From positions 227,992-291,991 of the forward strand of contig JAACJM010000111.1 of assembly GCA_013368315.1 (NCBI GenBank): 64,000 nt of DNA, given 5' to 3'. This DNA is from Tetrapyrgos nigripes. Lineage: Eukaryota; Basidiomycota; Agaricomycetes; Agaricales; Campanellaceae. The position numbers and the translations under genes are program-made. Below are positions 22,754 through 56,299 of this stretch, one piece after another (positions within the stretch are counted from its first letter, which is position 1; each line of letters begins with the position of its first letter). Below the pieces are notes generated by a model. It saw nothing but the letters and a program-made list of their open reading frames with translations, was not told the DNA's origin and did not search any database.

Positions 22754-22770
22754 GCTAGCACTTTCTGTAT

Positions 22771-25925: not shown

Positions 25926-26378
25926 TGTCACAAAGAGGCGAGCGCTTAGATAGCGATAACGAGGAGCTACGGGCTCGACTAACAAGCAACAGTAAGAACT
26001 AGAACTGGTCCCAACAACGAAGAATGTATTAAATACCTAACAAGCAACAGTAAGAACTAGAACTACAGTGCTTGTTAGCAAAGGTGAAAGAAACTATAAC
26101 AAAGGGGAATACACACCTGGTCCCAACGACGAAGAGGTCAAGATGGGAAACCAGGTGTCAGGATGCAGGTTATATATGTAAAGGGAAAGCTGTGGAGTAA
26201 AGCTGTAATGGAAGCTGTACGAATGGCTATACAATAAGCTGTATCGGGGAAATGAAAGGTCCGGTGCATAGCATGTGGAATGTGAGTCATAAGGTGTAAA
26301 GGTCCGAGGAGTGGTATGAAGATCCGAGGATGCGGAGATAGAAGGAAATAAATAGTACCAAATATAGACTTCATGACA
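25926..26378 (-). repeat. 3' LTR of element E
   Basis: 453 bases from TGTCACAAAG to TTCATGACA, matching 32556-33008. It contains an internal direct duplication of a segment with CTAACAAGCAACAGTAAGAAC. The flanking ATTTC at 25921-25925 is the target duplication. Confidence 0.95.
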
Positions 26379-26391
26379 TTACCCCCCTCCT
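26379..26391 (-). other. Polypurine tract of element E
   Basis: Read on the minus strand it is AGGAGGGGGGTAA, directly before the 3' LTR. It overlaps the TAG stop of ORF3. Confidence 0.8.
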
Positions 26392-26914
26392 AAACTTCAT
26401 CGTCCTCGATGAATACTTTCGGAAGCCACTCGGCCCACTGTCTTTTCCACTGATCGCGGATCAGGGTGTCCAACCCTCGTTGCCCAGGCCAGTAGTTGGG
26501 TATGCTTGGCCGCGGGTCCGGAGACCACCATCTGGTGACATTGGCCGCAGTCCCCCATCCTGTTCCATCCCCCCAACCTGCTCCCCATCCATCATTGTTA
26601 GCCTCAACATCCTGAGCAAAGTGTGCCCCCCATACTGTGTTGGTTCCCCACCCAAGATTCCCTCTGTGCTCTGGTCAGAGGGACGTTTGATGAGCGACAC
26701 ATCCAGCTCTATGCCCAACTACCAGTATACAGCAGCTGTTTGCGTCGTCTTCTCCTCTCCATGTGCAGCGTTTGCAGCTGTTGTGTGGTCCTTGGTGGTT
26801 GTTGGCCAGTCGGCATCGTCGTTCTGACCGTCGTGCATACGTGCATCGTCCTCTGTTGGTTGGCTGAACGACCGGTGAGTTTTGTGTAGAGGGAGCAGTG
26901 ACGGCGGTAGACAT
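26390..26914 (-). pseudogene. Element E ORF3: Cys/His cluster plus WG/GW-repeat protein (one TGA)
   Basis: A sense-strand third ORF between the chromodomain and the PPT, 174 codons from ATG at 26914 to TAG at 26390. The N-terminus is Ser/Thr-rich. A Cys/His cluster follows: C-x9-C-x5-H-x3-H-x2-C-x2-C-x10-C, then GHRAGC. The middle has LGWG, VWG, DGWGAGWG and GWG repeats. The end is RGLDTLIRDQWKRQW and EWLP. Element G has a homolog at 49097 with the same Cys/His spacing, WG repeats and tail. One TGA near 26675 stands exactly where G has CGA (Arg). Zinc binding and Argonaute contact through WG/GW are inferences. I know no named family. Confidence 0.75.
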
Positions 26915-27073
26915 AGTGGTAGGTGGGTGCGAGTGATCGTTGGTTTGGTAGGATGTGATTGAATTCTGACTTTCTTGTTCTGGGATGGCTTGCTTTTATA
27001 GGCGTGGTTAGTGCTGACGTGTTGTTCGGCGCTTTGCCCATAAGCGGCTGGTGACAGCAGACACCGTCGCTCC

Positions 27074-30000
27074 CTAGATCCTCGTTGCCTCGGGGTGTTT
27101 TTTGTGGAATGCAGTGATTTTCCGCTTCGCATTTTTGAGGTTCGGGGCTGGTTCCCATGAGTTGTGGCCGCCGTCATAACCTTTCCACTTGACAAGGTAC
27201 TCCATTCGCCTCCATCACACTCTGCTGTCCAGGAGAGTGTCCACCTTGTACTCTGGCTCGTCCTCCCCTTCGAGGTATACCAGCTCTGGTTCTTCGGGCA
27301 AGAGTCTGTTCACCATGTTACCCCTGTAGGGATACAGTTTGTCAACATGGAACACCGGATGTAGGCGACTCAGGGATTCGGGAAGGTCTAACCGATAGTC
27401 CAAGTCGCCGATCTTTTCCAAGATCACGTATGGGCCTAGCTGTCAGTCACCCAACTTGTCGCTCGAAAGCTTTAAGTCGATGTCTTCTGCACTCAGCCAG
27501 ACGTAGTCTCCAACCTTGAACTGATGCCCTTTCCGTCTCCCTCTCTCATATCCCTCTTTCATACGCTGTTTAGCCAGATGTAACGCTGATCCAGCATCTT
27601 TCCGAACTTCTCTCAGGATCTTTAGGTGGTCTTCGATGTCTGGAATGCCTGTGCGCTGACTGACCGGTATGTTGAACAAGGGGAGGTAGCCATAGGTCAC
27701 TTCAAAGGGGGCCATGTTATGCGCTGAGTGTGTACGGGAGTTTAGAACGAATTCGGCCATGGGAAGGTGTTCTACCCAATCGTCCTGTCTGTAGTTTGTG
27801 TAGAGACGTAGGTATTTCTCAACCTCTTGGTTTGCTCGTTCTGTCTGACCATTCGTCTGGGGTCGGTAACCTGAGGAGAGGCTTGACTTGATCCCGAGTC
27901 GGTCCAAGAGAGAGCACATGGCTTGGGCGGCAAACTGAGGGCCACGGTCTGACACGAAATGGAGTGGAAGACCGTGTAGGCGAAAGATTTCTCGGTAGTA
28001 TAGGTCAGCAACTTCCGCAGCGGTGATGTTAGACGTGCAGGGAAGGGTATGGACCTGTTTTCCGTAGAGATCTGTGCAGACCAGGATCGCGTTGTAACCT
28101 TGTGAGGGTGGTAGCTGTGTAATGAGGTCAACTCCGACTTCTTCCCAGAGTCCTAAGGGGACGTCCAATGGTTGGATTACTGCACGTGGGTGACGTTGTA
28201 GCTTCTTCCTAGCACATCGGTCGCATCCTTCCACGTACTTCTCTATGAAGGAGCGGACGGTGGGCCACCAGAAGTGTGAGGTTACCAGGTCGAGTGTCCC
28301 ATGTAGTCCTGGGTGTCCTGCTGACGGCTTGTCGTGACACTGCTCTACTATTGCTTTCCGTAGTTCTTCATTTGGAGGGACATAGACTCGACCCTTGTGA
28401 TATACTAGCCCGTTATCCTCTTCCCATTTGGGTAACCCATTTGCCAGTCGCTGTAGTCCATCCTTTTTCAGCTGTTCTAGTCCTTTCAAGACTTCTACTT
28501 CTCTTCCCAATGCCTGTCGGATTCATTCTTCTAGGGGGTTGACTAGGGTAGTAGCCGCAAGTCTCACGAAGTGCTCTGGTTTGAGTACCGTGGTTTCTAG
28601 ATTGTCTTCTCGATCCGTCACCTGATGAGGGTGTAGGCGAGACAGAGCGTCTGCCTGGGTGTTCGCTTTGCCAGGCCAGTGTATGAGTTTGAAATCAAAG
28701 CGTGATAGCCAAAGGGCCCATCTCGCTTGTCGCCGACTAAGATCTTGTGCGGTTTTCCAGAACTCTAGATTGGAGTGGTCGGTGATGATCTCGAACAGCT
28801 GTGGCAGTCCTTCCAGGAAGTTTCGCCAGTCCTTCAGGGCTTCGATGATAGCTAACATTTCCTGGTCGTAAATCTCGTAATTTCGTTCCACCGGCTGCAT
28901 AGACGCTGAACGGAACGCTACCGGATGCCAAAGACCATCTTCGAGCATCTGCATCAGGGCTCCGCCCGTTGCAAAGCCTGACGCGTCTACTTCAACGCGG
29001 GTAGGGCGGTCCGGTGACCAGAGTGTAAGGATAGGAGCAGAAGTGAAGGCCGTTCGGAGAGAGTCGAAGGCTCCCTGTTGGTGAGTCCCCCAGTTAAATG
29101 AGATGTCTTTGTGGGTGAGATTGTTCAGAGGACGAGCTGTTTTAGCGAAGTGTTCGATGAATCGTCAGTAGAAGTTCACAAAACCTAAGAATGCTCGAAC
29201 ATCTCGGACGTTACGGGGAATCGGCCAGTGACGCACTGCTTCCACTTTTACCAGGTCCATACGGACTTGCCCTTCTCGGATTATCAGACCAAGATACTCT
29301 ATCTCTTCTCGCTCAAACTCGCACTTCTCCGGTCTTAGATACAAATCGTGCTTCTTCAGCCTTGCTAGTACCTCCCGAACCACCTTTCGGTGTTCTTCCA
29401 GGTTTCCACTGAAGATCAGGATATTGTCCAGGTAAACGGCCACTTTTCCTGCAGCAATTAAATCGGAGAAGATGGAATTCATGAGGCTCTGGAAGGTCGC
29501 TGGAGAGTTCGTTAGCCCAAAGAACATGACAGTTGGCTCAAAGAGCCCCCGGTTCGTTGCAAATGCCGCCTTCCATTCGTCCCCTTTCTTGATCCGGACA
29601 TTGTTATATCCCCAATGTACATCAAACTTGGTGAAATACTTGGCTCCTTGCAGTCGGCAGACTATGTCTGCAACGAGGGGCAGAGGGTAGCGGTTCTTCA
29701 CGGTGTACTCGTTTAGCCGTCAGTAGTCCTGTATGAATCGAAGTTTTCCGTCTTTCTTCTTGATGAAGAAGACTGGAGAGGACAGGGGAGATTTGGATGG
29801 TCGGATGTAGTCTTTGCAGATGTTTTCTTCAAGGAAACGATCGAGCTCCTGCTGTTCGTTGATAGACATTGGATAGATCTTGGTACGTAGGGTGGCAGGT
29901 GCTCCTGGTACTAGATCAATAGCATGGTCCCAAGGTTTGTATGCAGGAAGGCGTTCGGATTCGGTTTCAGAGAAGACTTGAGCGTAATCTCAGTACTGAG

Positions 30001-30847
30001 GGGGTACTATCTCCTCAAATGACTGTTTCGGCTTCGACCGGTTTGCCTCTTCGGCTAACTGTTGCGAGTAAGTGAACCCCGCTGCACACCAGACCTCCTC
30101 TCCGGTGTCGGCAATGATCCCTGTTTTCTTCCAGGAGTGCCTGAGACGTCGATTGGCCCGAATGCGGTAAACTGGGGGTTCCTCCTCCTCCTCCTCTTGC
30201 TCCTTTACTGGATCTGGTGCTTGGTCGGTGGAAACATGTGTTTCCTGTGGGGTCAACTGGGTTGATTCCAAATCGACGCTTTCGAGGATAACATTTCCTT
30301 TTGGAGCAGGTTCAAGACTTGAGGCAACGAACTGATCTTGATCTGGGATCTCTTTTACCGATGGGGGTTGTGCTTTAGGAATTTGTAATCGACCGCTCGT
30401 CCAGTCAATCCGTGGGTTCACCTTACGTAGCCAAGGAAGACCCAGAATGACGTCTTCTCCACCTAAGTCCGTTACCAGAAAGTCTAACCATGTCTCTTGT
30501 CCATCTGCCGTCATCGCTAGTCGACAGAATCGGTCTATGCACCCTGCTCGGTTAAGGGTGCCATCAATGTTGTAGACATCTAGGGCTTTACGGAGAGGGT
30601 GTGTTTGGATTCGGTGTTGCTTTACAAATGTCTGTCCCAGGAACAGGCCCATAGCTCCACTGTCAATCATCGCCACTACCACTGTTTTGTTTTGTCTTCC
30701 CCGGAGTTTCACACGTATACGAAAGTGCGAAGCATTGGATTCTATTTCGGAAATATTGGATATGGTACATGAGGGAATAGAATCGTACGAAGAGCAGGAG
30801 AACATGTGGGTAGTCAGGGGTGTTCGCGTCATGGCGGGAATGGACAC
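27074..30847 (-). pseudogene. Element E pol: protease, RT, RNase H, integrase, chromodomain
   Basis: A single frame over the whole pol. Protease AMIDSGAMGLFLG with VILGLPWLRKVNP comes first. RT shows FVNFYRRF-type motifs and AVYLDNILIFSG, with Asn in place of the second catalytic Asp. RNase H has VEVDASGFATGG, and integrase has CDRCARKK, VDLITQLP, VSDRGPQF and TNGQTERANQE. After [11 protein letters not shown] comes a chromodomain with [11 protein letters not shown]. Six TGA codons interrupt it (PQY*DY, QDY*RL, FY*RF, LEE*IR, LGD*QL, SRV*WR) with no frameshift. At QDY* and FY* the related elements in this window have Arg. Pol is in the -1 frame relative to gag, entered at a T5 run near 30855. 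Confidence 0.9.
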
Positions 30848-30852
30848 CCGTT

Positions 30853-32016
30853 TTAAAAACCTGGTTGGGCAGCAATGTTACATAGTAGAGCGGTCTGATC
30901 GGCGATGGACTTTTGCAAGGCATTGAGTGCAGACGAGGACTTGGAGGCTGCGATAGTGACAGTGGGGGTGGGGGCGGTGATAGGAGAGGGCGGATCGTCC
31001 AGGAAGAGACTGAAGTTGCCACTAGCAGTAGCGGCCACACGCTGTCGATTCCGGCCCCCTCCTCTGGGTCGTCCCATGTATCGGTCTTGACAGACCGAGC
31101 CGCGGTGACCCGTTCTCTCACAGTAGTCGCATTTATCACGCCCGTGGTTTCCGTCTCGTTTCAAGTGGTCCCTGGATCCGCAGCCGTAACAACGCCCTTG
31201 CATTGCCTTCTGATAGTCTCCGAAGCTTCGTCCGTTACCCTGAGGACGCTCAGTACGCGAGGCGTCGACATCCATGGCGTTAGGGTCTCGTGTAGAGGAG
31301 AATCGGGGGAAAGAGGTGACAGGCCTAGTGATGGGTTTCCCTAGAAATTCAGCTAGGGTCTGTTCGACGTGGAGTGCTCTGTTGATTAGTTCATCCAGGT
31401 TCTTGGGGGCCTCCTTCTGGCCTAGCTCTACATTCGCTAATGGGAGCAACAGGTCTTTATGAAGGCGCTTTCGGAACTTGTATTGAAGGTCCTTGTCTGA
31501 AAATCCAGTTTTCTCTGCCCACTGTTTGAAAACCTGAGAGAATTCTGAAACCGTTTTATCTCCCTGTTTCAGCACCTCGAGCTTGTTCTGTGCCAACTGC
31601 TGTTCGTTTGCTACTCCAAACCGAACTTTTAATGCGTGGGTAAAGTTATCCCAGTTCCCTTCCCAGGGGAAGGCTGCTCCAGCTTCTTCTGCTCGGACTC
31701 TGCTGATATGGCGGGCGTATTCTGCGGCCCACTCTGCAGCGGGTCCCTCCATCATGAGAAGCGCTTCAGCAATACACTTCTGTGGATTGAGTTTCCCATT
31801 ATCGAGTTTGAGCCGTTTCTGTTCTCCAGCCCAGAGAATGAAGAGGGATAGGAATGAGTCGAGCTTGGCAGGTTCGCCTTTGAATGGGGCAGGCTTGGGA
31901 GTTTTATCTGAGGCCTCGTGGACAGGTCTGTTGACTAGGCTGGTGATCGCCTGTTGAAGTTGGTCCTGGTTATTAATCAGAGCCTGAAGGAGGTTTTCGA
32001 GGGCAGGGGAGGACAT
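30853..32016 (-). CDS. Element E gag
   Basis: I place the start at the ATG at 32016 (MSSPALENLLQALI), giving 387 residues. The capsid region shows KPAPFKGEPAKLDSFLSLF and FALKVRFG-like helices (FTHALKVRFGVANEQQLAQ). There are two zinc knuckles, CYGCGSRDHLKRDG (last Cys replaced by Gly) and CDYCERTGHRGSVC. No stop interrupts it. It ends Gly-Phe-stop on a run of five T, where a -1 slip would enter pol. The frame stays open upstream to about 32516 without an ATG. Confidence 0.88.
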   Translation of the reverse strand: MSSPALENLLQALINNQDQLQQAITSLVNRPVHEASDKTPKPAPFKGEPAKLDSFLSLFILWAGEQKRLKLDNGKLNPQKCIAEALLMMEGPAAEWAAEYARHISRVRAEEAGAAFPWEGNWDNFTHALKVRFGVANEQQLAQNKLEVLKQGDKTVSEFSQVFKQWAEKTGFSDKDLQYKFRKRLHKDLLLPLANVELGQKEAPKNLDELINRALHVEQTLAEFLGKPITRPVTSFPRFSSTRDPNAMDVDASRTERPQGNGRSFGDYQKAMQGRCYGCGSRDHLKRDGNHGRDKCDYCERTGHRGSVCQDRYMGRPRGGGRNRQRVAATASGNFSLFLDDPPSPITAPTPTVTIAASKSSSALNALQKSIADQTALLCNIAAQPGF

Positions 32017-32516
32017 GTTGGTGTCAGAGATTGGGGAGTGAATGGGACTGAGTGAGGCTGATGCAGGAGGGGATGAGACAGGAGCGATTGTAGGGCTGGG
32101 GCGGGCTGTTGGCACAGCTGACGATGGAACAGGGGTTACAGGGGGCAGGGGACTGGAGGGCTCTGGATCGGCAGTGAAGATTGGGCGGAAAGTGCGGCGA
32201 GTGGGGATAACGAGATGGCTTCCTCCTAACTCGTCCACAAAGAGTGCAAGACTGGGAAGCAGGTTGTTGTAGGCGTGTGGGCAGGGCTGTGTGTCACAGT
32301 CCCAATATTCCTCGAGGCGATGGTGGTGACAGTCAGTGCGATCATAGATATCAAAGCCGTGCAGATGATTTGAACAATCGAAGCCTGGTTCAGGGGAGAG
32401 CTGGGATGATGTAGTGGGAGACGGAGGTGCAGATGCAGATGCGGAGGATTCAGAGACAGAGGACGGTGCGGTGTATCTCCCAGACGTGATGAGAGCAGTA
32501 CCTGCAAGGACAACCT
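32017..32516 (-). CDS. Element E leader frame upstream of gag (no ATG)
   Basis: The frame of gag is open for a further 165 codons upstream, starting close to the PBS, but has no ATG. It contains a Ser/Pro-rich part and then FDIYDRTDCHHHRLEEYW and TQPCPHAYNN. Element H has a similar block before its gag (FDLDSYFEDG, HPCPNAY). That likeness suggests a coding leader, with a non-ATG start or a spliced 5' exon. In H the same block lies in another frame relative to gag. Confidence 0.45.
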
Positions 32517-32543
32517 ATACAGAGGCCGCCAGTGCAGTGAGGG

Positions 32544-32553
32544 ATCTTGACCT
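32544..32553 (-). other. Primer-binding site of element E (self-priming type)
   Basis: On the minus strand AGGTCAAGAT lies two bases inside the 5' LTR. Its exact reverse complement ATCTTGACCT lies in the LTR, read from 32774 to 32765. Confidence 0.65.
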
Positions 32554-32555
32554 AA

Positions 32556-33008
32556 TGTCACAAAGAGGCGAGCGCTTAGATAGCGATAACGAGGAGCTAC
32601 GGGCTCGACTAACAAGCAACAGTAAGAACTAGAACTGGTCCCAACAACGAAGAATGTATTAAATACCTAACAAGCAACAGTAAGAACTAGAACTACAGTG
32701 CTTGTTAGCAAAGGTGAAAGAAACTATAACAAAGGGGAATACACACCTGGTCCCAATGACGAAGAGGTCAAGATGGGAAACCAGGTGTCAGGCTGCGGGT
32801 TATATATGTAAAGGGAAAGCTGTGGAGTAAAGCTGTAATGGAAGCTGTACGAACGGCTATACAATAAGCTGTATCGGGGAAATGAAAGGTCCGGTGCATA
32901 GCATGTGGAATGTGAGTCATAAGGTGTAAAGGTCCGAGGAGTGGTATGGAGATCCGAGGATGCGGAGATAGAAGGAAATAAATAGTACCAAATATAGACT
33001 TCATGACA
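32556..33008 (-). repeat. 5' LTR of element E
   Basis: 453 bases from TGTCACAAAG to TTCATGACA, paired with 25926-26378. The flanking ATTTC at 33009-33013 repeats the ATTTC at 25921-25925. Confidence 0.95.
32774..32808 (-). promoter_or_regulatory. LTR promoter of element E: TATA box and predicted start
   Basis: TATATA on the minus strand near 32806 lies about 33 bases upstream of the ATCTTGACCT segment at 32774 that complements the PBS. The geometry matches elements A and G. Confidence 0.55.
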
Positions 33009-38479: not shown

Positions 38480-40452
38480 GGACTCCAACAACAGGACCTA
38501 TTGTATCGCTTACAACAGGAACGGATGTCGACGAGGTAGATGCGACTACCATCACGCCTGTGGCCGATGCAGCTCAGGAGACCACACCTCTCAGAACCAT
38601 CGCAGTTCTGGATCTGGAAGTACAGGAAATGGTGGCTCTGGAGGTGGCCCCTCTGGCGCCAGATGAGGATGTTTTTCCCGTTGTCACCAGACTCAAACAC
38701 AAGGTCTGGTACAAACTACTCAAGGACTCTGGAGGACTTGAGCAGTTCACTGAGGTTCCGAAAGGCCTCGAACACAGTTTTCTCATCGGTGTCGAGGGCT
38801 ACACTCTCTCGCACACATACACACCACCTAACCATCCTTCTGCTTCACAATATGCATATGTGATTGAGGACAAGTTTCGCGATGAGATTTGTCTTGGACG
38901 GATCTCGTGAGGCTATCAACCCGCATATCTCAAATCCATCATTGGCCCCTTCTGCACCTCTCCAATGGCGGTCATAGAGCAAAAACCCCAAAAATATTGC
39001 ATTATTGTTAATCATTCGTACTCCAAACGTCAGAAGTCCAACAAACTTACTCCATCGCAGACGCCAACTGTTCACAAGAAATAACTTGCACATTCCAACA
39101 CAAAACCTATGCCCTACACATCATCTAACTCTATTGTTATTGATCCAGAACATTTCTCACCAAACTTGCTCATTGATTCCACCAAGTTCCAATGCACCTG
39201 GGGCACCTTTTCCCAATGTTGGCTCCTCATAGCCAAGGCACCACCAGGTACGCAGGCGGCGGTGTTCAATGTCAATGCCGCTTTTCACAACATTCCCATT
39301 CATCCATCAGCTTGTTGTTTCGTTGCCTTGCTTTTCAACGGTCTAGTCTTCCTTGATCAGTGTCTCAACTTCGGGAAGGCTTCGTCACCAGGCATTTGGG
39401 GTTTGGTAGCCAACGCTATGGTCCACATACTACTGTTCTACAGCGTGGAAGCCTTAGTCAAGTGGGTAGATGATTTCATCTTTTTTTGTTATCCAAAGAA
39501 GACTAATACGGACAGCAGCCACGAGTACACCTATGACGAATCACTCATATGGTCCATTGCGGAGAAACTCGGATGGCCTTGGGCACTGGTCAAGTTCATT
39601 CTATTCGCACTAGCATTCATGTACATCGGCTTCTTCTGGGACATTGATAAGAAGACTGTTGAATTACCCAAGGCAAAGAAGACGAAATATGCGAAAAAGA
39701 TCACTGACTGGCAAGGGAATGCCACTCATTCAAAGGAAGAGGCCGAGTCATTGGTTGGCACCCTTCAACACATCACGTTGGTTCTTCCTGAAGGCCACTC
39801 ATACCTATCATCTCTTCATCACTTCGTTTCTGGATTTGCAAACGACAACCATCCCTTAGTTCGTCACACTTCTTCAAAAACTGTCAACGACGACCTTGTC
39901 TGGTGGCTAGAACAGTTACAACGGCCTTTTCTTGGACTCCACATCATCAAACCACCACCCATCAATTCAACTATCTCTCTATATGTCGATGCTTCCACAT
40001 CATGGGGCATCGGGCTCATTCTCAACGGGAAATGGTTAGCATGGGAACTAAAACTGGACTGGGCTGGCAGTGGACGTCACATTGGGTGGGCCAAGATGGT
40101 CGCCGTCGAGTTGGCCTTGCTCACACTCATCACTTCACATTATCACAACATCCATATTCACATACACTAGGACAATCAAGGTGTAGTCAGCGCACTGAAG
40201 GCAGGGCACTCGCAGGGAAAGGAACAGAACGCCTCCCTCCAATGTATTGTCAGCCTTATGCAGGAACATTCGATATGGCTATCGGTGGACTGGATCCCGA
40301 GTGGCGAGAACATCGCAGATGAACCTTCCAGGGGTATTCTTAGAAACAAACGAAAGATTCATCCCCATCCTCCCAAAATCCCTAGACAGCTCTCCCCGTT
40401 TTTATATGGATATGTCATTCCTTCTGATCCTCGTATACTACCATCCTCATAA
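38464..40452 (+). pseudogene. Element F reverse transcriptase and RNase H
   Basis: One frame with three stops: TGA after CLGRIS, TAA near 39080 and TAG near 40168. RT landmarks of the DIRS/Ngaro type are HTYTPPNHPSAS, PMAVIEQKP, the palm motif VFNVNAAFHNIPIHPS (usual FDVDSAY), LNFGKASSPGIWG and VKWVDDFIFF. RNase H shows SLYVDASTSWGIG, DNQGVVSALKAG and GENIADEPSRG. Both Asn residues in FNVN follow a codon ending in C, so FDVD to FNVN fits CpG loss; one is the catalytic Asp. Confidence 0.82.
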
Positions 40453-40670
40453 ACAAGAGTATCCACACCTTCTACACATATAATTGTATAACCACAACCT
40501 TTAAAATCATAACATGTATCCCAAAATTACGCACCAGGCTAGGAAGCTTTCAACGAAAAACAGACATGTTCATTACAATCACATGACAGCAGTTACAAAC
40601 TGCCACACGACACAATTTACCAACTTCTCCTCATCATCAACCATAACATGTCCTTTCTACAGCCAACATC

Positions 40671-41854
40671 ATGCCTAGAGCCAGATCTCTCCCGGCGACA
40701 AGACGTAAATCACTGATACAGCCCAGCAAACATTGTGTTTCACTTCCCGCTCGCTTCGTGGACCACCCGCATTTCAACTCACTTCGTCACCCCGACTTAA
40801 CTGACAATGCAGCCTTGGCAATTGCTGGGGCAGTCAAACCTGAGACACTGCGTAGACAACAGAACGCCATTACGGAGTTCGCGAACTGGGCCAACAACAT
40901 GGGTCTACATGCTGATGAAGTTTTTCCAGCATCAGAAACCATTCTCATCGAGTTCGCAGCCTCCTTCCGTGGTCGTCTCGCAGGTGGCACAGTCAAGGCC
41001 AAGATCAGTGCACTCAAGACCTGGCATCTCTCTCTTGTGGTTTCAGCTGGAAAGGCAGCAAACTACTTCGGCGTACATTAACCAGTATCGAGAAACAAGC
41101 ACCCGCCTCCTCTCATTGTCCTGAACGCCCTCCTGTCACACATGACATGATGAGACTACTCCACTCCGCTTGGTCTTCTTTCAACAAAGGAATCCACAAG
41201 ACGGCGAACTCATCTGCCAAGATAAGCTTCCTAGGACAACTCAGACTAGGTGAGTAAAATCACAAACGAGACACATCCATTATAATGAGGCCTGCACCAG
41301 GCGAGATCTTCCCCTCTCATTCCGACCCCAGGATGTTTGACTGGAAAAAACATCCTCGAGTTAAGGACGTCACTGAGCTCAATCCTCTTCCAAACCACAA
41401 ATATGGTCCAATGGACATCCGATTGCCGAGCACCAAGACTGAGACCAGCAACGGCGACAACGCTTACATTTCCGCATATGAAGGCTCCCTCAACGCCACC
41501 AAGGCAATTCATATACATGTCAGAGCAAATAACCTAGCCCCAGGTCACTCTCTTACAGCCTACCGTGATTCCAATGGTCAACTCAAAGTCCTAACGAAGT
41601 CCAAATTTCTTTCCATGTGCAACGGGATCTGGTCCAAGGCGGGCTACGAGCGCTACTCCGGACACTCATTCCACATTGGCGGCACATCCTTTCTCCTTCA
41701 TGATGGCGTTGACACCGAGGTAGTCAAACGGATGGGAAGATGGAAGTCCAGTGCCTTCACCAGGTACTGGAGGGACATACACACCATTGCCTCAGTTCAC
41801 ATAGACCGAGTTCATGCTCATTGTCGCCTACAGCAACGCCTACACAACAACTAA
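40671..41854 (+). pseudogene. Element F tyrosine recombinase with one intron
   Basis: The N-terminal SAM-like part (TLRRQQNAITEFANWANNMG, then GGTVKAKISALKTWH) is followed by a frameshift near 41075. The core has PPVTHDMMRLLHSAW and LGQLRLGEIFPSHSDP. The Gly codon of LRLGE is split by an intron at 41250-41300 (GTGAGT..CACCAG, 51 nt) that keeps the frame. The catalytic end has SGHSFHIGGTSFLL, RMGRWKSSAFTRYW. The Tyr is present but the Arg of HxxR is His. The enzyme would integrate circular cDNA. Confidence 0.8.
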
Positions 41855-42041
41855 ACCACATCATCCTAACAAATCACTCTCCTGACCGTCGAGATCCACA
41901 TCTGCATCCGTCACATCACACAATGATACTATACTCATACATCACAACAACTAAACCACATCATCCTAACAAATCACTCCTTACCGTCGAGATCCACATC
42001 TGCATCTGTCACATCACACAACGATACTATACTCATACATT
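41844..42041 (+). repeat. 100-bp tandem duplication after the recombinase gene
   Basis: Two units begin ACAACAACTAAACCACATC at 41844 and 41944. They differ by a few bases (TCTCCTGACC versus TCCTTACC and single transitions). The first unit includes the recombinase stop codon. Confidence 0.85.
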
Positions 42042-42349: not shown

Positions 42350-42823
42350 TGTCATGAATCATCTCCCGTCTCTTTGATCTCCTCTTCATTTCCTTCTACT
42401 ACCTATTCACTTCTATTCACTGTTCTATCACCTTCCATAAACCCATAAACACTAATTACTTCTCATCATCATCCACCCCGATCTATGACTCACTTCTCCG
42501 CTTCCTTTATCTCCATGGACATTCTCACACATATACTCCTTTACTTAACTCACATTCTTATCTCCTCCAATCCCTAGGCTCCATGGACATTCTCACATAT
42601 TCATTCCTCTCTTATATATATCTTGGATCTCGTAGCTAGATTCCTTAGTCTGTTCACTTCGTCTCCACTCCGCTCCTAGTACAGTGCAGTGTCGAGCATA
42701 GTCAGCTACTCGACCCCTTTCATCTCCATTATCCTTTCTCTATCTCATCTCATTGTAACTTGCCAAATCTATCTGTTCATTGTGTGACTTGGGTGGTTTT
42801 GCTAAGTGACAACGTTCTTGACA
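42350..42823 (+). repeat. 5' LTR of element G
   Basis: 474 bases from TGTCATGAATC to CTTGACA. It differs from 49644-50117 at six sites, all transitions, five of them at CpG positions. Confidence 0.96.
42613..42647 (+). promoter_or_regulatory. LTR promoter of element G: TATA box and predicted start
   Basis: TATATATA starts at 42613, 34 bases before AGTCTGTTCA at 42647, the segment complementary to the PBS. No ATG occurs between this predicted start and the LTR end. Confidence 0.6.
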
Positions 42824-42824
42824 C

Positions 42825-43376
42825 TTGAACAGACTCTCTTACACCCACCTCACAAACAACCCCGTACAGAAATTCCTGATAAACACACTGGCTCTTAACT
42901 TCGAACCCCTTCTTGACAACCTACGAACTCGACCCCCACCAATATACCCTTTCCCCATCGAAGAATCAAAATGCTTCGTAAACTACCTAGAAGAACTCAA
43001 AACAACAGTATGCGAACACGCTATCGCATTCGACGACTATTGGATTATACTCAACAAGAGATCGTGGACCTCAGGTGAAGTAACCGTCTCCGAATACCTC
43101 CGAATAAAGATATCACCTGAAAACACTTCTCCACGCTACGTTGCAATTGCAGATACGTGCTACCTCGTCCAACTAGGAGACACAACCCTCCCATATTGGT
43201 TCAGTCATGCTGACTACGAAGATAGCGCCATCTCCGAATTCTGCCAAGAGGAATACCACGAATATCTCCAGACTCGAGTTCCTAGAGTAAACAACTATTA
43301 TAGATCGTTGGTCTCTTGGGAAGATATCTCGGGAGAGCAGTGGGACCATCTGTTTCCGGAAACCGAAAACGAGTGA
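42825..43376 (+). CDS. Element G leader ORF without ATG
   Basis: 183 open codons begin at the PBS and end in TGA directly before the gag ATG, in the same frame as gag. No ATG occurs in the frame. The product looks like a real folded protein, rich in Tyr, Trp and Glu (FDDYWIILNKRSW, YWFSHADYEDSAISEF). It could be the original N-terminus of gag with the TGA a changed CGA, started by a non-ATG codon or a lost ATG. No family recognised. Confidence 0.45.
   Translation: MNRLSYTHLTNNPVQKFLINTLALNFEPLLDNLRTRPPPIYPFPIEESKCFVNYLEELKTTVCEHAIAFDDYWIILNKRSWTSGEVTVSEYLRIKISPENTSPRYVAIADTCYLVQLGDTTLPYWFSHADYEDSAISEFCQEEYHEYLQTRVPRVNNYYRSLVSWEDISGEQWDHLFPETENE
42826..42835 (+). other. Primer-binding site of element G (self-priming type)
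   Basis: TGAACAGACT lies two bases inside the 5' LTR and is the exact reverse complement of AGTCTGTTCA at 42647-42656. Confidence 0.65.
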
Positions 43377-45023
43377 ATGAGCGGAAGCGGAATTCCTAGA
43401 ACCACTAGATCTCGCACAGCCTCACAAAATCCCAGTCGCACCTCCTCTCCCAACTTCGTTTGTCTCCGACGACCTCACGCACACTTTCCTCGAAACCAAC
43501 AAGATTGCTACTTCTCGCACGAAAACCGGTGGGAGTTCTGCACAACCCATCTGTGTCCCAACCGACTCTCCATAAACAATCGACCCCTCTCAGTCGAAGA
43601 ACAAACAGTCGGTATCGAACCAGTTCTACTCTTCCAATCACTCCCATCAGAACCAACCATGGAAAACCCGAATCCTACCACAACCCCGTCACCGACTCCT
43701 TCTCACGAACCAAACCCAAACAACGAAACTCCCTCAGAATCCCAAAACCCTCTCAACAGATCCCCAACGGACAGTACTCCTAGTGCAGTCCAAGAACCTA
43801 TATCAGTCAATCCCTCACTACCAATCGACTTCCACTCCATTCATGCCGCTCTCGAAATGTCTGAAAACCCTGCCTCAGCTACAGCCGCTGCAGGAGGAAC
43901 CCAAGCTCCCTGAGACGCCGTACCACCCGACGACGACGCTCAGTCCTCGGTCTTTCCCAATATGACTACCAAAGAATGAGGAGTAAAGCCAGAAAAGTTC
44001 ACAGGAGACCGGAACCAAACAAAGGATTGGATGGCCGAATTTAACAACTATCTTTGGCTCAACGATCAAGTCTATCCCACTGAAGAGGAAAAGATATCAT
44101 TCTTCCTCACGTTGTTCTCAGGAGAAGAAGCTAAACGATGGGCTCATAACATGATGGTAAAGGTGTTTGAAGAAGAAGACGATTTCAGCGATAGCGACGA
44201 AGAATATACAAGTACTGATGAAGATTCCTCCACCTCGAAACCGAAAACGAAAGGAAAATCCTGGACTCTACGCGAAATAAAGCGAGAATTCCTACGGGAT
44301 TTCAAACCCTCAGCTCGGGAAACCCAGACCCAAACCAAAATAGAACACATCAAAATGGAGGGAGCCCTGGCCGATATAGATAAGTACAACTCCCAATTCA
44401 AACGATACGCTGACGATACTGGCTATAACGACAAGGCGTTAATGAAGTACTATCGAAAGGGACTCCCCCGAGGACTAGTCGACCGGATCTCCTACCTATC
44501 CACTCAACCCAGAAATCTCGCGGCATTACAAAAGGCAGCGGTAAAACAACACATGATTTGGTTGGAAAGACAGGAAGAGAAAACCTCATGGAGTAAACCT
44601 CGAAGGGAGGAAGGACAACCGGGAAGGGGATCACAGGGCACGAGAAGTGGTCGAGCAAGAAGTATGGAAGTAAACGCCTTCCAAGATAACGTCCCAGGTG
44701 CATCTTCAATCACTAAATATCCACCGAAACTGACCCCCCAAGAAAGGGACAAAATGAGGAAGGAAGGGCGATGTTTCAGGTGCCGAGGACAGGGACATAT
44801 GGGTAACGATTGCCCTACGTTCCCTAGCACGCCTCCAACCACTCCCAACAACACGACCTGGAGACCCTCCATAAAGAAAACCGCAGTTGTCACAGAGACC
44901 TCGGAGCCCAAGGTCAACCCTACCACGGATAACATCTCAGAACTCACTGCCAGAATCGGAGCATTGTCAGGAGAAGAGAAAGAAGGGCTACTAAAGAAGT
45001 TCGTAACAGAATCGGATTTTTGA
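43377..45023 (+). pseudogene. Element G gag (two in-frame TGA codons)
   Basis: ATG at 43377. The first 178 codons are Pro/Thr/Ser-rich and end at TGA (43911). Another TGA follows at 43977, after which the frame is open to 45023. The capsid part shows GVKPEKFTGDRNQTKDWM and WTLREIKREFLRDFKP. One zinc knuckle, CFRCRGQGHMGNDC, lies near the end. An acidic EEEDDFSDSDEE stretch sits in the capsid part. It ends Asp-Phe-stop on five T, where a -1 slip leads into pol. Confidence 0.85.
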
Positions 45024-48000
45024 ATACCTCCCCTGCCACGTCGTCGGGAGGAGGGACATGGACATACATACCAGTAAAACACAGGCAATACACAAGCCTT
45101 ATACCCTTTCGTAAGCCACGATCCCCATCTGAATTGAGAATCACGGCAATCACTCGAAACCAACAGACCCCCTCAATAGAGCTTAAAACCGAATTGATCG
45201 GGAAAATAACTGGACGAAAAATCAACGCAACCGCTCTGCTAGACAGTGGAGCAGAAGGAATCATCATTAATGATGCCTTCGCCCAAAAACATCATCTCAA
45301 ACGCATCCCCCTAGAAAAACCATTTCCGGTTCGAAACGTCGACAGATCAGAAAACGTGATGGGATGGGTAAGGCACTACACCATTCAAAAATTACGAATC
45401 TACACCCAAGACCACCAATCTCACCACGAAGAAACCGCCGAGTTTTATATCACGGATATCGGAGATCACGATATCATCTTGGGTACCGATTGGTTACGAC
45501 ATCATAATCCGGAGATCGACTGGGTGACATCAGAGATCAACCTAACACGATGCCCCAACGCTTGTGCACTGGGAAAAGCCCCAGTATTAACCAAAGCTAA
45601 GTCGAAAATCTCCCCTCCAAAAACAAAACAACCTGAAATAGTCGACCCCAGAACACATCACCGAAATTACCAAGTAATATTCAAAGACATCGTAGGACCT
45701 CACAAAACGACACCACAACCCAAGGTGGCCGGACAACGTCGATCACAACGACCTAGGAAGATCCAACTGCAAAGAGTGGACTTAGGAGTGATGCTTGGCT
45801 CAGAAGACACGACTGGACAATGGAATGTCCCAGAACAATGGAGTGAACTCGTTATGGAATATCTAGATACCCCAAACGACCCTGACGAAGGTCTGTCAGG
45901 AACCAAGCTGAGTATCCGAACTGCCTTTACCAAAGCACGACGAAACACTGAAGACGAATCCACAAACTCGCCAACCACGTTACAAGAACAAATACCCAAA
46001 CAATATCACGAATACTTATCGGTGTTCGACAAAAAGACTTCAGAACGCTTACCCCAACGAAGCGATTGGGACCATGCAATCGAGCTACAAGACAGCTTCC
46101 AACCACGCGCATGTAAAACATACCCTCTTTCCCCAAACGAACAATCCGAACTCGACTCCTTCCTGAACGAAAATCTCGAAAAAGGATATATTAAACCATC
46201 AAAATCTCCAATGGCAAGTCCCTTCTTCTTTGTTAAGAAAAAGGACGGAAAGCTACGCCCAGTACAGGATTACAGAGCACTCAATAAGGGTACCGTGAAA
46301 AACGCGTACCCACTACCCCTCATCCCAGAACTAATCGACAAACTCAAGAACGCATATGTGTTCAGTAAAATCAACCTACGGTGGGGATACAATAACATCC
46401 GTATCAAAGAGGGGGACGAATGGAAAGCCGCCTTCAAAACCAACCAAGGACTATTTGAGCCGACTGTCATGTTTTTTGGACTAATGAACTCGCCAGCGAC
46501 CTTCCAAGCAATGATGAACACTATTTTCAAGGACCTCATCGACCAAGGGAAGATCGTCATCTATATGGATGACATTTTAGTATTCACCCATGACCTAGAA
46601 GAACATCGAGAATTAGTTCGAACAGTTCTACAACAACTACGAGACAACGACCTATACGCCAAACCTGAAAAATGCGTATTCGAAGCAGAAAAGGTCGACT
46701 TCTTGGGACTGATTGTCTCGCACGACACCTTGTCGATGGACCCAGCCAAGGTAGAAGGAGTACTTGAATGGCCAACCCCCAAAACAGTAAAGGAAGTTCA
46801 GGCCTTCTTAGGATTCGGAAACTTCTACAGACGCTTCATCAAAGACTTTTCGAAAATCGCACGCCCCCTCTTCGATCTGACGAGGAAGGACAACCACTAG
46901 AACTGGGGAACAGAGGCCGAAAAGGCATTTCAATCCCTCAAAACGGCCTTCACATCCAAACCCGTCCTACTGATGCCAGATCACACGAAGCCATACCGAG
47001 TGGAAGTAGACGCATCAGACTACGCAACGGGGGGGATACTCATGCAAACCGGAGAAGACAATCGATGGCACCCAGTCGCCTACATCTCCAAATCCCTCTC
47101 AGAAACCGAACGAAACTACGACATCCACGACAAGGAATTACTGGCAATCATACGGGCGCTGGAAGCATGGAGACACTATCTGGAGGGGGCCCCCCATTCT
47201 ATCGAAATCTTCACCGACCACAGAAACTTGGAGTATTTCCAGACCGCCCAAAAGCTCAGTCAGCGACAGGCACGATGGGCGTTGTTCCTCACACGATTTG
47301 AGTTCTCCCTCCAACATAAACCAGGAAGTCTGAATAAAGCTGACCCATTGTCTAGACGACCAGACCACAAAATCGGGACTGAGAACGACAACACCGACAG
47401 AATCCTTCTCGACCCCAAATTCTTCCGAATCCGAGCGACTAGACAAGGAACAGTAACCGCTATAGGAGACGTAGAACTACGACGGAGAATCAAGGAATGC
47501 CCCAAGAGGGACCTAGAGGTAGTAAGTGCCTTAGATGTCATCCTACGAAACGGACCACGTTCGCTGGTGAAGAATCTACAGGAATGGAACTACGAAGATG
47601 GAATCATCTTATTCCGAGGCAAAATCTATGTACCAGCAGATAACGACCTCCGACGGGATATCGTAAAACTACACCACGACTCCCTGGCAACAGGACACCC
47701 CGGACGATACAAGACCTACGAACTAGTCAGCAGAGAATTTTGGTGGCCAGGAATGTCAGTCTTCGTCAGAGACTACGTAGCTGGCTGCGCCAAATGCCAG
47801 GCGACGAAAACCAACAACCATCCCACTCGGATCCCCTTAATTCCCACCGAAATTCCAGAACGTCCGTTTGGGACTATTACCACCGACTTCATCACGGATC
47901 TCCCCGAATGTAAAGGGTTCAATGCAATTCACGTCACAGTCGACAAGTCAACAAAAACGGTCATCATATCGCCGTGCACAAAAACAATTGACAGTGACGG

Positions 48001-48937
48001 AACGGTGAATCTGCTACTTGACAACACTTGGCGGCAGTATGGATTGTGGGACAAAATGATATCCGACCGAGGACCGCAGTTCGCTAGCAAGGTCATGACC
48101 GCGATCCATGAGAAGCTAGGCATAACTTCAGCCCTTAGTACCGCTTACCACCCACAGACTGACGGAGAGTCGGAGCGATACAATCAAGAATTGGAACAGT
48201 TCCTACGGATCTTCTGTAACTACCGACAAGAAGACTGGGTGGACTATCTACCCTACGCCGAATTTAGTCATAACACCAGAATCCATGCAGCGACAGGAAA
48301 ATCCCCCTTCGAACTCCTACACAGATACCAACCACGCTTCTTTCCATCATTCAATCCAACCTCTAACCTACCGACGGTAGAGGAACGACTCGAAAACCTC
48401 AACCAACTCAGGGACGAACTCAAAGCAAGCCTGACATCGGCCGCCGAGACAATGAAAGCACAGCATGGAAATCATTCCATGTCCTGGACAGGGTACAAGG
48501 TCGGAGATAAGGTGCTACTCGACGGAAAAAATCTAAAGACAACAAGACCGAAAGCTAAGTTGTCCGATTGTCGTCATGGCCCATTCGAGATCATTGAAGT
48601 AATCAGCCAGGTTAACTACAAATTGAAATTACCGACAACCTGGCGTATACACCCTGTCTTCCACGCTTCCCTATTAACGCCGTACGTCGAAACGGACGCT
48701 CACGGACCAAATTACCCCGAACCTCCCGCGGAGCTGCTAGACGCAGACAAAGAATACGATGTTGAAATGATATTAGACTCAAAACCAACCAGAAACAGAA
48801 AAGGTACTCAGTACCTCATCAAATGGTTGGACTATCCCGACTCGGAGAATACTTGGGTACCTACGTCAAACCTGACCAAGGTAAAAGACATGATCGAAGA
48901 ATTCCATCAGAAACACCCCCGAGCTTACCGACACTAA
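45020..48937 (+). pseudogene. Element G pol: protease, RT, RNase H, integrase, chromodomain
   Basis: One frame of about 1305 codons with a single TAG at 46898 (DNH*NWGT, where Trp is expected). Protease is ALLDSGAEGIIIND with IILGTDWLRHHNPEIDW. RT has QDYRALNKGTVKNAY, PTVMFFGLMNSPATFQ and VIYMDDILVF, so the catalytic motif is intact. RNase H has VEVDASDYATGG. Integrase has HHDSLATGHPG, CAKCQAT, TTDFITDLPE, ISDRGPQF and TDGESERYNQE. The chromodomain is YDVEMILDSKP, YLIKWLDYPDSENTW. Pol is -1 relative to gag. Confidence 0.93.
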
Positions 48938-49096
48938 CGGCGTCTACTGTCACCACCTAATTGACGGCGACTTTGTCGCCTCCCACCACCACAAACAAGG
49001 ACTCGTTAAAAGGCAGATATACCGAAACTAAACGACAGAACAAGCTCAATCACATCCTACCACACACCTCTTCACCCTCTCACTATACCTCCATCA

Positions 49097-49632
49097 TGAC
49101 TACACCCATCGCTATCACAGTCTCGACTACCACCACAACAACAATCGACCCGTTGACGGACAACACCGGACGCTGCAGATACGGTCAACGATCAGGCCGG
49201 CGTTGCAGACTAGACGAAGGGCACACGGGGAGGCACAGCGGATGTAATCAATGCATCTGGCCAGGACATGAATCGTCAAAATGATGCAAGTTGGGAGCAG
49301 GACACCGAGCGAGATGCGCTACCTACCGGTCTAGCCTCCGAGCCAACGAACGAAACAACCTGGGATGGGGAGATGCAAGCGTATGGGGAGGAAACACTCA
49401 GTTAAACTATGTCGACGACAACATCAGATGGGGTAACAACAACGATGGATGGGGAACATGGGAAGGGATAGGATGGGGGGGACGTGAGTCAGACCTAACA
49501 GGATGGGGCACCTTCCCCAACGACTCACCGGAAACTTGGCCGACTATACGTGGTTTGGACAAAAGGATCAAGAAGCAGTGGACGAAGCAGTGGACCAATT
49601 GGCTTCCGAGCTCTGGTGAAAGCTCGACCTAG
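49097..49632 (+). pseudogene. Element G ORF3: Cys/His cluster plus WG/GW-repeat protein (one TGA)
   Basis: A sense-strand third ORF between the chromodomain end and the PPT, ATG at 49097, TAG at 49630. The start is Thr-rich. The Cys/His cluster has the spacing C-x9-C-x5-H-x3-H-x2-C-x2-C, then a Cys and GHRARC. The middle has LGWG, VWGG, IRWG, DGWG, GWGG and GWG. The tail is RGLDKRIKKQWTKQW and NWLP. All of this aligns with E ORF3 at 26390-26914. A TGA at 49282 splits the cluster. WG/GW repeats are the known Argonaute-hook signature in GW182-type proteins and in some plant-virus silencing suppressors; that role here is a hypothesis. Confidence 0.78.
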
Positions 49633-49643
49633 AGGGGGGGTAG
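49631..49643 (+). other. Polypurine tract of element G
   Basis: AGAGGGGGGGTAG directly precedes the 3' LTR at 49644 and overlaps the stop codon of ORF3. Confidence 0.82.
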
Positions 49644-50117
49644 TGTCATGAATCGTCTCCCGTCTCTTTGATCTCCTCTTCATTTCCTTCTACTACCTAT
49701 TCACTTCTATTCACTGTTCTATCACCTTCCATAAACCCATAAACACTAATTACTTCTCATCATTGTCCACCCCGATCTATGACTCACTTCTCCGCTTCCT
49801 TTATCTCCATGGACATTCTCACACATATACTCCTTTACTTAACTCACATTCTTATCTCCTCCGATCTCTAGGCTCCATGGACATTCTCACATATTCATTC
49901 CTCTCTTATATATATCTTGGATCTCGTAGCTAGATTCCTTAGTCTGTTCACTTCGTCTCCACTCCGCTCCTAGTACAGTGCAGTGTCGAGCATAGTCAGC
50001 TACTCGACCCCTTTCGTCTCCATTATCCTTTCTCTATCTCATCTCATTGTAACTTGCCAAATCTATCTGTTCATTGTGTGACTTGGGTGGTTTTGCTAAG
50101 TGACAACGTTCTTGACA
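49644..50117 (+). repeat. 3' LTR of element G
   Basis: 474 bases from TGTCATGAATC to CTTGACA, followed by the target duplication CTTAT at 50118-50122. Confidence 0.96.
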
Positions 50118-54668: not shown

Positions 54669-54670
54669 TA

Positions 54671-56297
54671 CAGTGGGCAAAAAAATTGTCCGCATGTTTT
54701 ACACTTTTGCAAAGATTGTCAATTATAGAGCTACTGAATAGAGATGAGACAAAATAGTCAGTGATGGCCTGAAAGCCCTTGATAAGTGCTATGATAATCT
54801 TCTTGTTTTGTGTTATTTGGTCAAATACCCATGGAGATATACCCAATTTAAAATGGTAAGTCATTTGGACAATTTTTTGAGTTGCTACTTTATCAATACT
54901 ATTGGCACAATGTGATGCCTCATAGATGACATCATAAGTGGAGCTGTACAGCGATGCAATGTATACATCATAATGATGTCATAACTGTCAGCTAGACCAT
55001 ATATAAGGACATCCAGATCATCTATTGCCCCCATAAAATCATGAGACCCATCACCTCCACTCAGAAAGACAATGTCCTCTCTCATCTCCAAACTGGCGCT
55101 TCATCCAGGGAAATCTCTGCTCAAACTGGAGTATCCAAGTCAACAGTTGCCTCTCTGGCCAAAGAGATGTATCCTGACAAGGAGAACCATAAGGCAGGGC
55201 GCCCTAAGAAGCTCTCTACCACTGATGAACGGGCTGCTATCAAACAAATCAACACTGGGAAAGCCAGGAACGCTGCAGAGGTGGCCAGAAACATCAATCC
55301 CCTTCTTGACCAAGCTATCTCCACCCAAACCATGCAAAATTCCCTTCACAAACATGGTGTAGACACCAAGAAACCACAGAAAAAGCCCAAACTCACTGCA
55401 GCTCACAGGAAGGCTCGTTTAAAATTTGCAGAGAAGTACAAGGACTGGACTGTGGATGACTGGAAACAGGTTATATGGTCAGATGAGACTAAAATCAATC
55501 AGTTTGGGTCAGATGGGCAGCAGTTTGTGTGGGGTAGGACAGGTGAATCCATGGGAGAGAGAGATGTGGTGGAAACAGTCAAATTTGGAGGAGGAAATAT
55601 CATGGTGTGGAGGTGTATGGGATGGGATGGACCTGGAAACATGGCAGAGGTTGAGGGATGGATGAATGCAGAGCAGTATGTGGACATTTTGGAGAACAAT
55701 CTTCTGGAGAGCATGGATCGTTTGGGTGTTGATCTGGAGATGGCCATTTTTCAGCAGGATAACGATCCAAAACACAAGTCAAAACTAGCCACCAAATGGT
55801 TTGAGGACAACAAAATCCATTGCATGAGCTGGCCTGCTCAGTCTCCTGACCTAAACCCCATTGAACACCTCTGGACAACCCTCAAACGCAAACTCAACAA
55901 GTATGATACAGCACCATCTGGAGTTTGGGAAATATAGGATAGAGCAGCAGAAAAGTGGGTGGAAATCACAGAAGAGGATTGTCAGAAATTGATCAGGAGT
56001 ATGCCTAGAAGGATCAAAGCTGTTTTGAAGGCTAAAGGAGGGCATACCAAGTACTGAGCAAGCACTTTCTGTATTTTAAGGCATATGTCAAAAAATTGTC
56101 CAAATGACTTACCATTTTAAATTAAGTATATCTCCATGGGTATTTGACCAAATAACACAAAACAAGAAGATTATCATAGCACTTATCAAGGGCTTTCAGG
56201 CCATCATTGACCATTTTGTCTCATCTCTATTCAGTAGCTCTATAATTGACAATCTCTGCAAAAGTATGAAACATGCGGACAATTTTTTTGCCCACTG
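54671..56297 (+). mobile_element. Tc1-like DD34E transposon, copy 2 (1627 bp)
   Basis: It begins CAGTGGGC and ends GCCCACTG, flanked by TA at 54669-54670 and 56298-56299. It has the same length and layout as copy 1, with long inverted terminal repeats. Its transposase gene has one nonsense codon. Confidence 0.95.
55041..56057 (+). pseudogene. Tc1-like DD34E transposase, copy 2 (one nonsense codon)
   Basis: ATG at 55041, stop at 56055, 339 codons including the stop, as in copy 1. A TAG at 55935 replaces the Trp codon TGG of copy 1 (WEI*DRAAEK), a G-to-A change. All three catalytic motifs (WSDETK, QQDNDPKH, NPIEHLW) lie before the stop. The truncated protein of 298 residues lacks about 40 C-terminal residues. 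Confidence 0.93.
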
Positions 56298-56299
56298 TA

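Follow-up and report, generated by a model that had tools for sequence, protein, structure and literature searches.

Two chromoviruses in the window

The window analysed here is a stretch of 64,000 nucleotides of the Tetrapyrgos nigripes genome. Two LTR retrotransposons, named G and E, are located in the window, and their features are as follows.

42350..50117, + strand: element G, chromovirus; LTRs at 42350-42823 and 49644-50117, with CTTAT at each flank (exact ends by eye)
43980..45023, + strand: gag of G, open stretch; Retrotrans_gag (Pfam) and a gag-type zinc knuckle
44933..48937, + strand: pol of G; protease, RT, RNase H, integrase and chromodomain; open stretches 44933-46900 and 46901-48937
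48755..48913, + strand: chromodomain, C-terminal in pol of G; PF00385, 57.8 bits, residues 619-671 of the second pol stretch
48937..48952, + strand: 16-nt motif ACGGCGTCTACTGTCA of G, at the pol stop
49006..49011, + strand: TATA-like box TTAAAA of G, 90 nt before the ORF3 ATG
49035..49053, + strand: candidate transcription start region of G (ACAGAAC, then TCAATCAC), shared in the upstream alignment
49096..49632, + strand: ORF3 of G, type 1, interrupted by TGA (49282-49284); ATG 49096-49098, stop TAG 49630-49632
49174..49317, + strand: Cys/His cluster in ORF3 of G, interrupted; nine positions invariant in the 16-copy alignment A1
49354..49629, + strand: W/G-rich tail and C-terminal QW..QW..W end, ORF3 of G
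49633..49640, + strand: polypurine tract AGGGGGGG of G, immediately 3' of the ORF3 stop
25926..33008, - strand: element E, second chromovirus; LTRs at about 25926-26378 and 32556-33008; pol in several pieces
27052..27064, - strand: motif copy in E, two mismatches to GCGTYTACTGTCA
26995..27000, - strand: TATAAA box of E, 86 nt before the ORF3 ATG
26390..26914, - strand: ORF3 of E, type 1, interrupted by TGA (26675-26677); ATG 26912-26914, stop 26390-26392

G is a chromovirus of the Ty3/Gypsy group, with LTRs, gag, pol and a chromodomain, and so is E, the chromodomain of which was recognized by eye. The two LTRs of G show 98.5% identity over 480 aligned bases, and those of E show 98.9% identity over 453 bases. 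The two open pol stretches of G are joined at a stop codon (46898-46900). According to Pfam, the domain set of E is the same as that of G apart from the chromodomain; the chromodomain-like stretch of E was seen in the translation and is broken by a stop.

The sequence-only reading had described a homologous sense ORF between the chromodomain and the polypurine tract (PPT) of the two elements, and this ORF, named ORF3, is present at that location in both. In G, 158 nt separate the pol stop from the ORF3 start at 49096. The two elements were said to differ in gag and LTRs. The gag proteins show only 23% identity over 188 aligned columns (E 3e-5), and the integrases show 37% identity over 360. 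Different LTRs are also indicated, on the sole basis that no repeat joining the LTRs of G and E is listed.

Other repeats were observed in the window. At 39085-42040, an RT-like ORF precedes tyrosine-recombinase-like ORFs and a direct repeat of 64 nt, and by eye the unit looks DIRS-type. At 54669-56299, a transposase-like ORF (54996-55937, Tc1-like by eye) lies between 212-nt inverted repeats. This unit is nested in a chromovirus-like remnant (about 51.9-54.8 kb), and a related inverted-repeat pair is present at 21365-22995. The stretches 16878-18484 and 33598-35082 are inverted copies, about 90% alike, and perhaps represent more nested element fragments. The direct repeats 1-311 and 10484-10795 are 97-99% alike and 10.5 kb apart, and they are possibly LTRs of another element.

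ORF3 copies and selection

Two ORF3 query pieces were searched against the 98.5 Mb genome, and at least 150 scored matches were obtained for each (351 and 449 candidates). Full-length open ORF3 was found in 36 copies among 72 loci. These 36 copies were selected as open, with C-x5-H-x3-H-x2-C-x2-C, an MST or MTT start and a known C-terminal ending. Open copies with a lost ligand or ending, such as L011, L040, L042 and L043, were left out; L011 is open and full length, with one Cys of the cluster lost. As the copies are related to one another, the counts per copy and the shuffle counts given below are not independent. These further homologues in the same genome have the order of features described for G and E. 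The earlier view of a conserved ORF is borne out by the homology and the many open copies, but not by the two window copies as such, which are both broken by TGA (49282-49284 and 26675-26677), a point absent from the sequence-only reading.

In all 27 intact copies with the flank at hand, a pol match on the same strand ends 151-528 nt upstream. The upstream DNA was fetched for five of the other nine intact copies, and pol was found in each; thus, pol is located upstream in 32 of the 32 testable copies. The ORF3 carriers belong to three pol lineages, G, E and a third, comprising L047 to L077, that is named H. At the integrase-chromodomain end, G and H share 69-73% identity, and E shares 39-43% with the others.

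Among the 150 matches listed for one of the two query pieces, the in-frame stops in the ORF3 rows are TGA in 22 cases, TAG in 7 and TAA in 2 (by eye), and five of the seven TAG-stopped rows score identically. Decay through cytosine deamination would be compatible with the prevalence of TGA; the host genome contains two matches to DNA methylases.

The pooled pN/pS of type-1 ORF3 is 0.25 (220 pairs, dS 0.1-0.9). In pairs of the same range, the values are 0.16 for the Cys/His part, 0.30 for the WG part and 0.31-0.32 for the two ends. In successive dS bins from 0.05 to 1.0, ORF3 gives 0.26, 0.21 and 0.27, and the integrase-chromodomain end gives 0.18, 0.12 and 0.08. Above a dS of 1, the value is 0.47 in ORF3 and 0.17 in the integrase-chromodomain end; below 0.05, one pair each gives 0.64 and 0.42. 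The third codon positions hold 9513 of the 17013 pairwise differences in ORF3. The comparison indicates that the constraint on ORF3 is clear, but weaker than that on pol. The evolution is non-neutral as anticipated, since pN/pS of 0.21-0.27 at dS 0.05-1 is far below 1. These results demonstrate that ORF3 codes for a conserved protein, is under purifying selection and occurs in lineages with 39-43% identical integrase ends; it is almost certainly an accessory gene maintained by selection.

Two unusual sets of loci were also observed. L091 and L092 represent a more divergent type-1 lineage with broken frames, the same upstream motif and a TTAAAA box; they are absent among the matches listed for the two type-1 query pieces. 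At L102 (G000:C57:84900-86450), RT-RNase H is fused in frame to the ORF3 W tail by an internal deletion. This is a single copy, and the fusion may be due to chance.

Head and tail of the type-1 protein

In the alignment of 16 diverse type-1 copies (203 columns), the start Met and nine Cys/His positions are invariant. The spacing C-x9-C-x5-H-x3-H-x2-C-x2-C of the sequence-only reading is found in both G and E, but the cluster is longer than described and continues with x(10-11)-C-x5-H-x3-C. The whole pattern C-x9-C-x5-H-x3-H-x2-C-x2-C-x(10-11)-C-x5-H-x3-C is present in 36 of the 36 copies, a count partly imposed by the filter. The cluster consists of two similar halves, C-x9-C-x5-H-x3-H and C-x(10-11)-C-x5-H-x3-C, and one extra Cys. 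From this arrangement, two metal sites are likely.

Both G and E contain the WG/GW units and the QW..QW..WLP end that had been noticed. Trp50, Trp92, Trp109, Trp118, Trp141, Trp155 and Trp159 (L077 numbering) are invariant in the 16 diverse copies, and Trp86 is present in 15 of them. Over the 36 related copies, eight of the nine columns with a tryptophan majority are conserved at 97-100%, and the tryptophan positions are thus kept among related copies, as had been supposed. The type-1 proteins contain 7-11 WG/GW dipeptides, compared with 2.6-3.9 in residue shuffles; in the 9 proteins tested out of 36, the observed count was attained in 0-40 of 1000 shuffles. Argonaute-binding proteins are characterized by WG/GW above the level of composition; such an excess is found in type 1 and is weaker in type 2, a second ORF3 type described below.

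The head is basic, with 9-11 Lys/Arg and 2-4 Asp/Glu, and the tail is acidic and W-rich, with 11-14 Asp/Glu and 5-7 Lys/Arg (four proteins counted). The tail tryptophans are located beside Gly, Asn, Asp and Ser. The composition of the tail would fit an unstructured, low-complexity type, a point on which the AlphaFold model is uninformative, as its confidence is low throughout, including the head; the mean pLDDT is 31 with the 16-row alignment and 44 with the 30-row Cys/His alignment. No membrane span, as expected of envelope-like third ORFs, was detected in the 36 type-1 and 8 type-2 proteins, the highest 19-residue Kyte-Doolittle mean being 0.78.

In the Pfam search with 16 type-1 members, no significant match was obtained, and the best hit (E 0.2) was a stray one. 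DUF3716 was considered as the family of ORF3 and dropped, as it matched one member only with E 0.92. The PDB search with the alignment A1 gave no relative up to E 10. These searches agree with the earlier statement that no named family has this combination, and the Cys/His domain appears to match no described family.

Three protein searches, one of them up to E 10, gave no homologue outside T. nigripes. The sole protein found was P0001 (D9758_002048), a gene model of T. nigripes. These searches require that query and target have 5-residue words in common and are of similar length, and gene annotation often omits repeats. Thus, the absence of ORF3 homologues elsewhere is weak evidence. In the P0001 model, an ORF3 tail is joined to a piece of a Tc1-like DDE transposase; this composite is probably a nested insertion or an annotation artefact.

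Upstream region and candidate internal promoter

In 37 of the 38 upstream regions, a TATA-like hexamer is located 79-97 nt before the ORF3 ATG. The strict TATAAA is present at -110 to -70 in 18 of the 38 regions and nowhere else in the 200 nt; the shuffles gave a mean of 0.57 and a maximum of 4, counts that are not probabilities because the copies are related. The box reads TATAAAAG in E and in most H copies; G and the type-2 elements have a TTAAAA-like form. On its 3' side, ACAGAAC or a near variant is found, and in many copies also CACATCC or similar.

The start of a 16-nt motif (ACRGCGTYYACTGTCA) is located between 97 and about 175 nt from the ORF3 ATG, on its 5' side. The degenerate pattern of this motif occurs in 198 copies in the genome, and the reversed pattern in none. 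Of the first 100 places listed, 82 are upstream of a listed type-1 ORF3 match. Six of the 18 other places were fetched, and a W-rich ORF3 comes next in all six (three open and three broken frames); by eye, five more of the 18 are directly upstream of a type-2 ORF3 match. Within two mismatches, no copy of the motif is present in the LTRs of G.

In 34 of the 38 copies, no other ATG is present in the 100 nt preceding the ORF3 ATG, and the exceptions are L017, L022, L049 and L057. Hairpins near the motif were inconsistent across copies by eye and were dropped. A bacterial promoter scan was set aside, as it is unsuited to a fungus.

From these features of the DNA, we predict that ORF3 is probably transcribed separately from its own internal promoter, which would consist of the motif, the TATA-like box, the start region and a short leader. 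Alternatively, ORF3 would be expressed from full-length or spliced RNA, and the upstream stretch would be an RNA signal or an exchange point (a template-switch anchor) instead of a promoter. By eye, the similarity between G and a type-2 element seems to stop just past the motif, and the end of the motif resembles the PPT-LTR edge; both points are in favour of this alternative. The near-constant distance from the TATA-like box to the ATG and the 34 copies with no other preceding ATG argue against it. By eye, the splice signals are also not consistent across copies, and the splice-acceptor reading was dropped. We thus consider expression from full-length or spliced RNA rather unlikely, and the internal promoter is retained as the working interpretation. 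The resemblance noted above concerns the motif end at 48944-48952 of the window (CTACTGTCA) and the PPT-LTR edge at 49638-49648 (GTAGTGTCA). Given this likeness, the motif end might be an old LTR-edge remnant or an exchange point.

Second ORF3 type and exchange between lineages

A second type of ORF3 was found by following the 16-nt motif, at L088 and L089 and then at L094-L099. The type-2 protein has no Cys/His cluster; it is acidic, contains 8-10% Trp, and its N-terminus is typified by TKIPYNPRDDGVDLFW. The genome search for type 2 gave 73 match rows. The pairwise dN/dS shows a median of 0.24 and a range of 0.10-0.47 (28 pairs, saturated pairs left out), and the pooled pN/pS is 0.38. Tryptophan occupies 8 of the 34 invariant columns. 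The WG/GW count was reached by 19-130 of 1000 shuffles (4 of the 8 proteins tested). No significant Pfam match was obtained for type 2, the best having E 0.3.

The tail profiles of types 1 and 2 are not significantly alike (probability 2.6%, single-comparison E 0.017), and the shared W-rich tail may be a convergence. This result, together with the lowest pN/pS being that of the Cys/His part, would also fit the view that the two tails are unrelated low-complexity stretches with no common function, only the Cys/His head being important in type 1. In that case, the conservation of nearly all tail tryptophans across copies would not be expected, nor would the selection on type 2 with its invariant tryptophans, nor the same location and upstream motif in both types. 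This view is accordingly judged quite improbable.

The pol genes of the two type-2 elements examined are 78 and 86% identical to that of G, and 60-67% identical to that of H. The type-2 pol is thus close to G, although G and H share type 1, which indicates that ORF3 was replaced between close relatives. The replacement point is apparently just after the motif.

Between E and H, the ORF3 similarity is 0.58 and the integrase similarity is 0.42, whereas between G and H the values are 0.48 and 0.71. The bootstrap intervals of this reversal exclude zero in opposite directions, E being represented by one intact copy (L041). A faster rate in G, instead of exchange, may also produce the reversal. In the ORF3 tree, the H rows are located on one side of a weak branch (60/41), and in the integrase tree, a constraint joining E and six H rows is not rejected (p-AU 0.325); both were calculated with LG+G4 without mixture, and long branches meet in them. 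The exchange is therefore based on the distance reversal and the type-2 replacement, and not on the tree topology. As the ORF3 and pol similarities are in conflict among the lineages, ORF3 behaves as an exchangeable cassette, and it is quite likely that the cassette or its coding part was exchanged or replaced between lineages.

Possible function of ORF3

We propose the following mechanism. In one basidiomycete genome, three or more lineages of chromoviruses would carry ORF3 as a cassette between pol and the PPT, and the ORF3 product would act as a two-part adaptor. The basic Cys/His head of type 1, or the other N-terminal module of type 2, would target it to the nucleic acid or the chromatin of the element. 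The acidic W/G tail would dock a host factor via its tryptophans. If this factor is an Argonaute of the RNAi pathway, the element would blunt the small-RNA silencing of itself.

Both types share the acidic W-rich character, and the tail is therefore taken as the working part. That the tail is the business end, as had been suggested, becomes likelier with the type-2 ORF3, which has no Cys/His cluster and yet is W-rich and acidic. A role of the tail as a host-docking module is reasonably plausible. Piwi-domain and RdRP matches are present in the host genome. Considering these matches, the WG/GW units and the WG/GW suppressors of plant viruses, Argonaute is the best single candidate for the partner, and the assignment is tentative. 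The whole chain of accessory gene, own promoter, cassette exchange and Argonaute docking by the tail is doubtful as one scheme. An exchangeable anti-silencing cassette of fungal chromoviruses in the strict sense would combine a separate promoter, an N-terminal targeting module that can be swapped and a constant W-rich Argonaute-docking tail; the module would be either a nine-ligand Cys/His domain of a new kind or another one. This scheme is unlikely to be correct in every part.

WG/GW suppressors of plant viruses, the P1 proteins of ipomovirus and WSMV, are reported to act via Argonaute (PMC6563293). ORF3 resembles these suppressors and the Argonaute-hook protein GW182 in the repeated WG/GW in an acidic stretch rich in Gly, Asn, Ser and Asp. 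Like the viral suppressors, it is carried by a selfish element, here in a host with Argonaute genes. It differs in that it is coded by a fungal retrotransposon and has a Cys/His head unmatched in Pfam or another N-terminal module.

Tryptophans among acidic residues are typical of activation domains. ORF3 may thus be a transactivator similar to Tas (bel-1) of foamy viruses, with an internal promoter, a head on the element DNA and an acidic-aromatic activation domain acting on the LTR or on its own promoter. The basic head and the acidic W-rich tail are in agreement with this reading, and the location and the probable internal promoter are as described for Tas (PMC8003144). However, no known DNA-binding domain was matched in Pfam or PDB. 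The motif is kept in type-2 elements without the Cys/His head and is absent from the LTRs of G within two mismatches; therefore, a role as the binding site of the head is not obvious. The type-1 excess of WG/GW beyond composition is also unneeded for an activation domain. A Tas-like transactivator is, taken by itself, an unlikely description of ORF3. As a reading of the tail, Argonaute docking is only slightly more likely than an acidic-aromatic activation domain. In the account of Tas in PMC8003144, the gene is located before the 3' LTR, has an internal promoter, and both activates transcription and inhibits RNA silencing. The transactivator and suppressor readings are thus not mutually exclusive. 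ORF3 is likewise an accessory gene before the 3' LTR, with an internal promoter in the prediction made above (PMC8003144, for Tas). ORF3 is located after pol and Tas after env, and no sequence relation between them was found.

The basic Cys/His head and the position beside the chromodomain and the PPT are also compatible with a helper of packaging or integration. Such a protein would bind RNA or DNA in a nucleocapsid-like or chromatin-targeting manner, and the W tail would serve for self-assembly or contact with Gag or integrase. However, a zinc knuckle is already present in both gags, and the gag-type knuckle C-x2-C-x4-H-x4-C is found in none of the 36 type-1 and none of the 8 type-2 proteins. 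The head is wholly absent from type 2. E and G have ORF3 in common in spite of their highly divergent gags, an argument against a close fit between ORF3 and Gag. A packaging or integration helper is hence regarded as improbable, and the two-part adaptor remains the preferred interpretation.

Comparison with other elements and significance

VANDAL is a DNA transposon, and its VANC protein binds specific motifs and removes methylation; we know of no WG tail in VANC. VANC of the Arabidopsis VANDAL elements is described as an anti-silencing factor coded by a transposon, which is the role proposed here for ORF3 (PMC5735166).

The usual coding content of LTR elements is two ORFs, gag and pol, as stated for fungal elements (PMC3248453). 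Accessory genes of LTR retrotransposons are already known from plants, rotifers and retroviruses. Grande of maize and other plant Gypsy elements carry, like the elements studied here, an additional ORF between pol and the 3' LTR, and the accessory gene of Grande is described as nuclear and as transcribed from a promoter of its own (PMC11963269). As described there, the ORFs of Grande, RIRE2 and Retand are antisense, whereas ORF3 is sense, and the proteins are different (PMC11963269). In LTR elements of bdelloid rotifers, the same ORF3 type occurs in unrelated retroelement lineages, which is read as modular exchange; the rotifer ORF3s described are enzymes or envelope-like proteins, unlike the mushroom ORF3 (PMC5408684). 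The ORF3 family of T. nigripes is abundant, selected and akin to known additional ORFs of LTR retrotransposons, and its protein is new. To our knowledge, no transposon coding a WG/GW protein has been known, and none was found for fungal retrotransposons in searches of open-licence papers.

If the proposed mechanism is true, ORF3 would be the first WG/GW silencing suppressor known to us from a retrotransposon, and the replacement of its head would recall an arms race. Should the tail bind Argonaute, one small protein would make it possible to test directly the arms race suspected between RNAi and the transposons of fungi. The two ORF3 types would then offer a natural comparison of the part that is kept, the tail, and the part that is replaced, the head. 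Even without Argonaute, a cassette of promoter and gene that seemingly moves among chromoviruses would be a new case of modular retroelement evolution.
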